Assembly: GCF_040436345.1 (NCBI RefSeq)
Contig: NC_133218.1
Span: forward strand, 28,788,710 to 28,852,709
DNA from: Pagrus major
Taxonomy: Eukaryota > Chordata > Actinopteri > Spariformes > Sparidae
DNA length: 64,000 nt
Direction: 5' to 3'
Positions 15,701-18,700 of the stretch are shown piece by piece (positions within the stretch are counted from its first letter, which is position 1; each line of letters begins with the position of its first letter). The notes beneath the pieces were generated by a model, which did no database searches, was not told the DNA's origin, and worked only from the letters and a program-made list of their open reading frames with translations. A program made the translations under genes and the position numbers.

Positions 15701-18700
15701 ACACAGACACGCTCATGAACACGATGGCCTACGTTTTTGATGTGCAGCGGGTAGCGTGTGATCCTCTGCATGGGTTTCAGCAGGAAGCTGGACAGCGGCA
15801 TGCCTTTACACCTGTAGTCTGTGGCAATTTTCTGATGGGGATAAAAGACAATGTTAAAACACATTAACAATCTTGTTTTCAAAATTGATATTATAATGAA
15901 CAAAAAAACGGCCCTTGAAACGATTCTCTGCATTCATGAGATACAATAAGCAGCAATGATACTGTCCCCGTGGTTTCACATTTGGATTTGGAGCCCTCTC
16001 CTTCCTACCTTGAGGAAGTTCTTAAAGTCCGGCTCGTTGTCGATGCGAGTCTGTAGCAGAGCGGCTCCGTTGATCTGACAGGAGCAGAAGCGGATGTAGG
16101 GCTGCATGTGGGACAGCTCCGCGGCCAGAATATCTCCGATCATCTGCACTGGCATGTTCTCCCCGCCCGTCTTCTTACGAACACGTAGTGCCCTGCACAC
16201 ACATTGTAAATGACTTTTAGGAAGGTCAAATAATAAGGTAACCACTTGCTGTATGTTTTTATTTTGTTGACTTAATCAGCTAACTCATAATATAAAGATG
16301 TTCAGTTTTTTTTTAGCTTATTTTATGTTATGTATCTGTCCTTTAGCTTTTACAGGGGTCTTCTAAAGAAAAACGTGTAACATAAAAATTTGTGTTTGAA
16401 TATGGCTGAAGGCTAAAACTTCTGGAAACATCAGCGCGGTTCAGTGCACAACTGGGGTATCTAAAGACAGGCTGATGTGTATTTCCCTCACAGCCACAAC
16501 ATTAAAACAGCTGCACTTGTATAAGATCCATACACTCATATCAGACTGACTGTCCCCTCTCGATCTCATTCACTCTGTGATATTTACTTGAGAAGTTTAG
16601 TGTTGCAGGCCAGCAGTTCTTTCCAGTTGACAAAGATCATGGCCATCTCTGCATCCTTCACCCGGCCCGATTCTGACATAGGCTTATGGAAAACCTGCAC
16701 AAACACACACACCAATACAGACATGAAGCTGTCAGACAGAAATAAAAAGGTTGCCTCACTGTATACTGTGTATATTAATCTATGGTTTAATTAGCAGGAC
16801 ACGTGTCTATTACCTCCAGCACTATCTGAAGGTCTTCCACGTATCTCTCCTCAGTCTGTATCAGCTCATGGATGTAACCCTGTCTCTTCTTCTCCTGGGG
16901 GCTCATCGAGTCCAGACTGTTCAGGTCTGCACACCCTGCAGGAGAGGAGGAACACACAAGAGGAAGGTTTGTGGTGGCTGAATTTTTGTACAGATGCATT
17001 CAACCAAAAATCAAACCACCACTTAAACCACAGCAATACTTTAGCACGGCATTTACTGCCTCCTGCTGGACGTTTGGATGAAAAAAACAAAGATGGTGCT
17101 GCTGTTTGGGCACATTACTGCCGCTTTCAGAAAGAATGAGTAAGACAACAAAGAGGAACTAGAAGAAGAGAGATGGAAATGGAAACATAGAGACTATGTT
17201 AGATCAGCACACACACACACACACACACACACACAAACACACACACACACACACTTACCTGATACAGGGTACCCATTAGCCCATTGTGAGGGTCCCATAT
17301 TAGCTGACAGTTCCCTCATCGGCCCTTCTCTTTCCTCTCCCTCATCGTCTGGCTCATCCCAAAGGTTTAGAAAGTTGAATCTGCTCTGTAAATCCATAGC
17401 TACGACTCCGATTTGTCTCTCTATGTATTTTAGTTTGTTGTCTGCCTCCCTGACTCTCCTGTCTCCTTCTCCGTCTCTGCTGTTATCTTTTCGTTGCTGG
17501 TATCCGACTAAAATTTCTCCTAGACCAAATCTGTTTGTACCAAAACAGGAAGGCGGATTCTTTCTTTCTCTCTTTCTCACCTTTTGACACAGAAAAAGCA
17601 TGTGGTTCTTCCCCTGGTTATCAGTGACTTCTGCCACTGAAATAAGTGCAGGAAATGGGGAATATTTTCAAGATACCTGGTATAATCACAGCTCCGTTGA
17701 AGTAACCTGTACTCTGAATTAAGCTGAGTGTAACGGTTCAAAAGGCTGTTCATATACTGTATATCTGTCCATCTTAATCATGTGTATTGTGTTGACAATA
17801 CAAACACTTCGTACAACACACACATGCACACACATCGTTGAAGTGTAGACTGATATTTCATTTCAGAATAATAAAACACTGTCATCTCAAATCAATCTTT
17901 ATTTTTTTACGTTTTACTTCAGAACCAGAAAATATATTAAGACACATCTTCAAAAATAGTTACACTATCTTCAGATATTGACATTATATATTTTGTCAAA
18001 TCTGTTGTGCTAACAGCCCCTGCTACTGCAGTATGAACTCTTGAAGCAGCTTCCTGTCATTGCGGTTCACCCCATGTTACTGCAGCCTTTCACAGATCTG
18101 AGGCAGGTTTGTGGTAAACTGAATCCAGTAAGCTTTAAATTAAATGAAAGAAAAAAAAAAAAGCTCTTTAGCAGCAATTTGCTTTTGTTGCACAAAAGAC
18201 AACCAAACTGTATTGTAGCATTTTGAATTTATCTTCTTGATGTCGCTGTACCTCAGTATTCATCAGACTGCGCAGCAGGAGTCACAGAATCTCAAGTAAA
18301 GCTTGCATAGATTTGTTTTTTCTCCAGTTGTTGACAATAATGACTATGATGTTATCTTTAAATCACTATTAACAGACTGATCATACAAAGACTTTGAGAG
18401 CAGCAGCAGCAAATCAGCATTCATTTAAAAGGTGCAGCAGCAGTTTGTGACATCACCCCTGGAGGCAAAGTTTATGTCTGTCAGTGGCTTTGAAACAGTT
18501 AGCCATATGGTGTAGAGTCGCTTCACGTCACTTCAAACCTTTCTTATATTCCTGATAACAGCCGACCCAATTATGGCTTTTAAACATAGAGGAAAAACTG
18601 TAAGCTTCTGCTTGTTTCATTTTCTGTCTAAATTAAGCTAAACAGAAGCTTTTCAAAGGCATAAAATCAAAGGCCCACTGCAAAATGGTTATAGGTAACA

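Follow-up and report, generated by a model that had tools for sequence, protein, structure and literature searches.

In the long form of intersectin-1 (ITSN1-L), the SH3(E) and DH domains make up an autoinhibited unit; published work on this unit ties the hinge between the two domains to the autoinhibition and discusses the linker as a hinge whose length could be altered (PMC2892021). The SH3(E)-DH fragments presented there carry no insert, and a natural form with a long hinge is not described in the passages considered. The neuron-specific microexon 20 of ITSN1 is an in-frame alternative exon that adds 5 residues inside SH3A and alters an interaction surface of the protein (PMC3645719). For ITSN2, no exon or promoter between SH3E and DH appears in the titles and abstract openings of the literature matches listed.

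The locus analysed here occupies this very place. Within a window of 64,000 nucleotides of the Pagrus major genome (the whole stretch of DNA that was analysed), a candidate alternative exon of 378 nt lies at positions 17259..17636 of the reverse strand, and comprises 125 complete codons with a split codon at each end. It is flanked on the same strand by the upstream ITSN2 exon encoding SH3E (19933..20127), whose last base belongs to a split codon, and by the downstream exon that starts the DH domain (16814..16935). Our preferred reading, to which we assign a probability of roughly 0.4, is that the candidate is an alternative exon of the itsn2 gene of this fish, probably young and lineage-restricted. 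Like ITSN1 microexon 20, it would be an in-frame alternative exon altering an intersectin interaction surface; it differs from the published microexon in that it is predicted from sequence and would add about 126 residues in the SH3E-DH hinge. The candidate is ordinary in kind, alternative exons being common, and its interest comes from its place.

The initial annotation had attributed the gene to intersectin-2, which agrees with the SH3E-DH junction peptide read without the candidate: its best PDB match is 3gf9 (Intersectin 2) and the next one 3jv3 (Intersectin-1). Pfam matches to SH3, EH, RhoGEF, PH and C2 domains point to the same gene; the Pfam scan covered positions 1-30000 of the window, and further exons, beyond 30000, are those given by the gene finder. 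The placement of the candidate in the linker involved in GEF inhibition also holds, in so far as the work cited above ties the hinge to autoinhibition in ITSN1. The candidate peptide itself gave no Pfam domain at E-values up to 10 and no PDB relative at E-values up to 1.

All exons used here are the output of our own gene finder and not an annotation: 35 ITSN2 exons besides the candidate. The program is simple and works with approximate splice weights and human codon usage. It chained the 35 exons up to C2 and also chose the candidate, with 8.2 bits. It further called 10 exons outside ITSN2 on the same strand, some of them clearly false, and three of these calls outscore the candidate (two in receptor copies and one, at 41.0, antisense to a retroelement). 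For the splice-site, GC3 and branch-point comparisons 32 exons were kept, 31704-31647, 29280-29171 and 21090-21060 being dropped as doubtful or very short.

In the frame that begins at its third base, the segment is free of stops; the other two frames contain 8 and 7. One base is left over at the end of the SH3E exon (CAG T/GTAAGT) and two precede the first full codon of the DH exon (GG TGT GCA), so that the segment keeps the phase on either side and can be included in frame. The 378-bp open stretch with phases matching both neighbours, as initially proposed, is thereby confirmed from the frame and the junction bases.

The two splice sites are of very unequal quality when scored in bits with these approximate weights. 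The donor (17253..17261, TCAG/GTAAGT, the intron beginning at 17258) is a full consensus of 8.5 bits, a score reached by 3 of the 4154 GT dinucleotides on this strand of the window, itself included, and by none of the 32 ITSN2 exon donors used; the epithet "perfect" that it had received is deserved. The acceptor had been called strong, and here our results disagree. The acceptor region (17631..17660) ends in tandem AGs, TTTCAG/TGGCAG/, placing the exon start at 17636 or, 6 nt further in, at 17630, both in frame. The acceptor at 17636 scores 2.2 bits and that at 17630 2.3 bits; only 5 of the 32 ITSN2 acceptors are weaker than the former, and 272 of the 4337 AG sites on the strand reach its score. 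It is weak, yet falls within the range of the acceptors used in ITSN2 (0.3-9.3 bits), and both splice sites are usable as far as consensus scores go. No YTNAY branch motif was found 15-55 nt upstream of the acceptor, a motif that is not discriminating here since it is present at 19 of the 32 known acceptors versus 52% of random places. The density of mixed purine hexamers is 0.139 in the candidate, whereas intron windows average 0.016 and none of the 406 overlapping windows is as high; it also exceeds the density in 27 of the 32 ITSN2 exons. Such mixed purine tracts resemble purine-rich splicing enhancers.

We then asked how often such a combination arises by chance. The probability of 0.24% initially given for the open frame is arithmetically right for random DNA. 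In 20,000 dinucleotide shuffles of the segment the frame stayed open in 0.04% of cases (1.1% for the first 79 codons and 7.0% for the last 46). When the 2997-nt intron was shuffled 1000 times preserving dinucleotides, an open exon in fitting phase, 378 nt or longer and with sites of at least 0 bits, appeared once, and none appeared with the observed site scores; the longest open run of the intron, 157 codons, was matched 10 times in 1000 such shuffles. Across 33 introns of the gene taken in their own phases (16,825 nt, sites of at least 0 bits), with introns bounded by 34 exons (without 29280-29171), the next longest such exon measured 222 nt, and the longest exon-like open stretch on the opposite strand of the gene region, in any phase, 239 nt. 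We also sampled the genome in 20 stretches of 10 kb, on both strands, accepting any symmetric phase and lengths of at least 372 nt. No exon-like stretch was found there at the observed scores, a figure for which the donor cut alone is nearly decisive since only 3 sampled donors reach 8.5 bits. There were still none with an acceptor of at least 2.2 and a donor of at least 6.0 bits. Lowering the thresholds to 0 for the acceptor and 3.0 for the donor gave 5 clusters, which possibly include real exons and of which 2 share the phase of the candidate, and 8 clusters were obtained with both thresholds at 0 bits. The splice signals and frame of the candidate are better than chance, although some selection remains in this estimate because the window had been read for oddities.

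The codons tell another story. Codon tests used 28 ITSN2 exons, four purine-rich coiled-coil exons being held out as controls. The mean score of the candidate against intron sequence is 0.093 per codon, below all 28 exons (0.143-0.632); taken separately, the initial 79 codons score 0.030 and the remaining 46 score 0.201, the latter above 4 of the 28. The candidate nevertheless outscored every fully open intronic stretch of equal length in overlapping windows: 0 of 17 (125 codons), 0 of 225 (79 codons) and 0 of 1210 (46 codons) scored as high. A model of in-frame versus out-of-frame triplets gave 0.06 in frame and 0.14 and -0.15 off frame; in leave-one-out trials 27 of the 28 exons preferred their own frame, as did 4 of the 4 held-out purine-rich exons, so composition alone does not explain why the candidate fails to pick its own. 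GC3 is 0.43, versus 0.44-0.76 across 32 ITSN2 exons. Three-base periodicity amounts to 1.64, a value lower than in any of 44 coding pieces of the same length and reached by 6.7% of 329 intron windows; the windows and pieces are overlapping, non-independent samples, and the dropped exons were left unmasked in most intron windows. Cutting the candidate at the ATG at 17397 did not restore the signal: periodicity fails in both parts, with 0 of 106 and 1 of 109 coding pieces (supplied by 21 exons) as low. The codon-frame signature of the rest of the gene is absent from the candidate, whose frame, though open, does not resemble one that selection has maintained for long.

Comparison within the genome leads in the same direction. 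In the 786 Mb of 25 contigs, very common words being skipped, the DNA of the candidate matches one place only, and its peptide matches its own place plus one insignificant hit (E-value 4.3). An exonised transposable element was rejected on these grounds. A BLAST comparison of the 800 nt around the candidate with the window returned, beyond itself, only a TG-rich repeat behind the donor. A search with the SH3E-DH peptide brought up two paralogs: C22, with 77% and 78% identity in the two exons, which we take as the itsn2 ohnolog, and C15, with 69% and 73%, which is ITSN1-like by its DH sequence, these gene labels being assigned by resemblance. Against both regions the candidate peptide gave nothing better than an E-value of 0.24 and its DNA nothing better than 0.013 (matches of 15 and 35 nt); the 15-nt match in C15 sits in a frame with nearby stops. 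The longest phase-fitting open exons in the corresponding paralog introns measure 84 nt (C22) and 171 nt (C15), and the frame has no counterpart in either paralog. Searches in collections of prokaryotic contigs (26 stretches matched a pattern, 0 confirmed) and viral contigs (2 matched, 1 confirmed over 19 residues at 58%, taken as chance) are silent on conservation in fish.

The short-form event served as a positive control for the paralog comparison. The best acceptor of the SH3E-DH intron (8.7 bits) belongs to a predicted ITSN2-S terminal exon at 18789..19626 of the reverse strand, which reads ...DPSAQWW-stop and has an AATAAA at 18794. In both paralog introns the best acceptor leads to a stop split over the junction (T/GA), and in the window to WW-stop, which is what the short form would require; C22 has a similar pyrimidine-rich stretch behind its short-form acceptor. 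All three genes have a predicted short-form terminal exon, and a single one of them has the candidate. The two events share the intron and the SH3E donor, but the short-form event ends the protein, whereas the candidate would keep the frame open into DH.

Of the initial description of the segment as an unrecognised in-frame cassette exon, what survives is that its splice signals and frame beat chance; that it is an established coding exon is not supported, given non-coding values for codon frame, GC3 and periodicity and its absence from two paralogs. These same features suit an unused pseudo-exon or decoy, in which a chance open frame, one very good donor and purine tracts come together and are seldom or never spliced, perhaps in mild competition with the real sites that decide between short and long form. 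We hold this reading to be possible, if somewhat doubtful. It would account for the lack of coding periodicity, the off-frame codon preference and the low GC3, for the weak acceptor, and for the missing paralog counterparts, and looser conditions do yield exon-like open stretches of similar length in the genome (the 5 clusters above, in 400 kb of strand, with an acceptor of at least 0 and a donor of at least 3 bits). It sits less well with the rarity of the combined sites and frame in intron shuffles, with a frame that so few shuffles of the segment leave open, and with a donor that surpasses all 32 of those used in ITSN2.

A strong donor behind a weak acceptor is also what an alternative first exon would show. 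Here a promoter in the intron, after the short-form terminal exon, would give a transcript whose first ATG, at 17397 (gtcgtagctATGG), opens 46 codons up to the donor (17260..17397, reverse strand) and into DH; the product, DH-PH-C2 without SH3E, would be a GEF free of autoinhibition. This ATG is in frame with G at -3 and +4, and it is the first one for transcription starts between 17598 and 17398 only. The 201 nt before it contain no ATG in any frame, but this is unremarkable, being seen in 22% of shuffles and in 77 of 1111 intron windows. CpG observed/expected is 0.61 at 17600-17301 versus an intron mean of 0.30, a value nevertheless reached by 33 of 469 intron windows, and immediately upstream each 200-nt window contains 2-3 CpG; the TATA-like matches in the 1 kb upstream lie at 17990, 17988 and 18548 only. 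Hints in the sequence of a transcription start inside or just before the candidate are weak. An untranslated 5' part would explain the periodicity missing there, but the 79 codons that precede the ATG are likewise open (in about 1% of shuffles), which a leader would not need, and the last 46 codons, which would be translated, lack periodicity as well (1 of 109 coding pieces as low). For the weak acceptor and the lack of periodicity, a first exon is about as good an explanation as a cassette exon; taking all points together we consider it rather unlikely.

If the candidate is instead an alternative, internally spliced exon of itsn2, as we favour, the strong donor and the purine-rich tracts would let the spliceosome define it in some transcripts despite the weak acceptor, from whose weakness we infer that inclusion would be partial. 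Inclusion would put about 126 mostly disordered residues (124 via the second acceptor) into the SH3E-DH hinge of the long form. The hydropathy of the peptide falls on the disordered side of the charge-hydropathy boundary, and AlphaFold, run on the single sequence of 125 residues, returned a mean pLDDT of 43. The basic start and acidic patch pointed out in the initial annotation are indeed present, with +5 per 20 residues early and -7 late. By analogy with the ITSN1 structure work, from which any effect of a hinge insert on the GEF is inferred, a longer hinge would loosen autoinhibition by SH3E and raise basal Cdc42 exchange.

A hinge insert and a first-exon form would both be expected to give a more active GEF. 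A broader and improbable proposal is that this one itsn2 intron has two outputs: a short scaffold ending at 19626-18789, and a GEF, separately started or hinge-extended via 17636-17259, free of autoinhibition by SH3E. Were it true, one fish lineage would naturally make a long-hinge or SH3-free intersectin of the kind so far studied as cut-down constructs. Were the candidate used, nature would have provided an experiment on the way in which the length of the hinge, or the loss of SH3E, determines the activity of intersectin in Cdc42 exchange, together with an example of a young exon inserted at a regulatory hinge. Were it unused, it would illustrate how far one can be misled by splice signals and an open frame on their own, and why it pays to run codon-frame tests before exons are called.

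Other elements were observed in the window. Beyond the C2 exons, 7134-7286 of the reverse strand gives a weak match to the DDE_3 transposase (18.6 bits for a cut-off of 28.6). Two copies of a rhodopsin-like GPCR gene, very alike by eye, lie on the reverse strand at 52788-53777 and 59353-60311; of the four open frames scanned, three matched 7tm_1 below its curated cut-off and the fourth gave no match. Between these two receptor copies, at 54563-55641 of the forward strand, lies a retroelement piece with an RVT_1 match in the open frame 54563-54931. Finally, the forward-strand open frame 48042-48599 matches GCFC (GC-rich sequence DNA-binding factor-like) and apparently belongs to a gene on the other strand from ITSN2.
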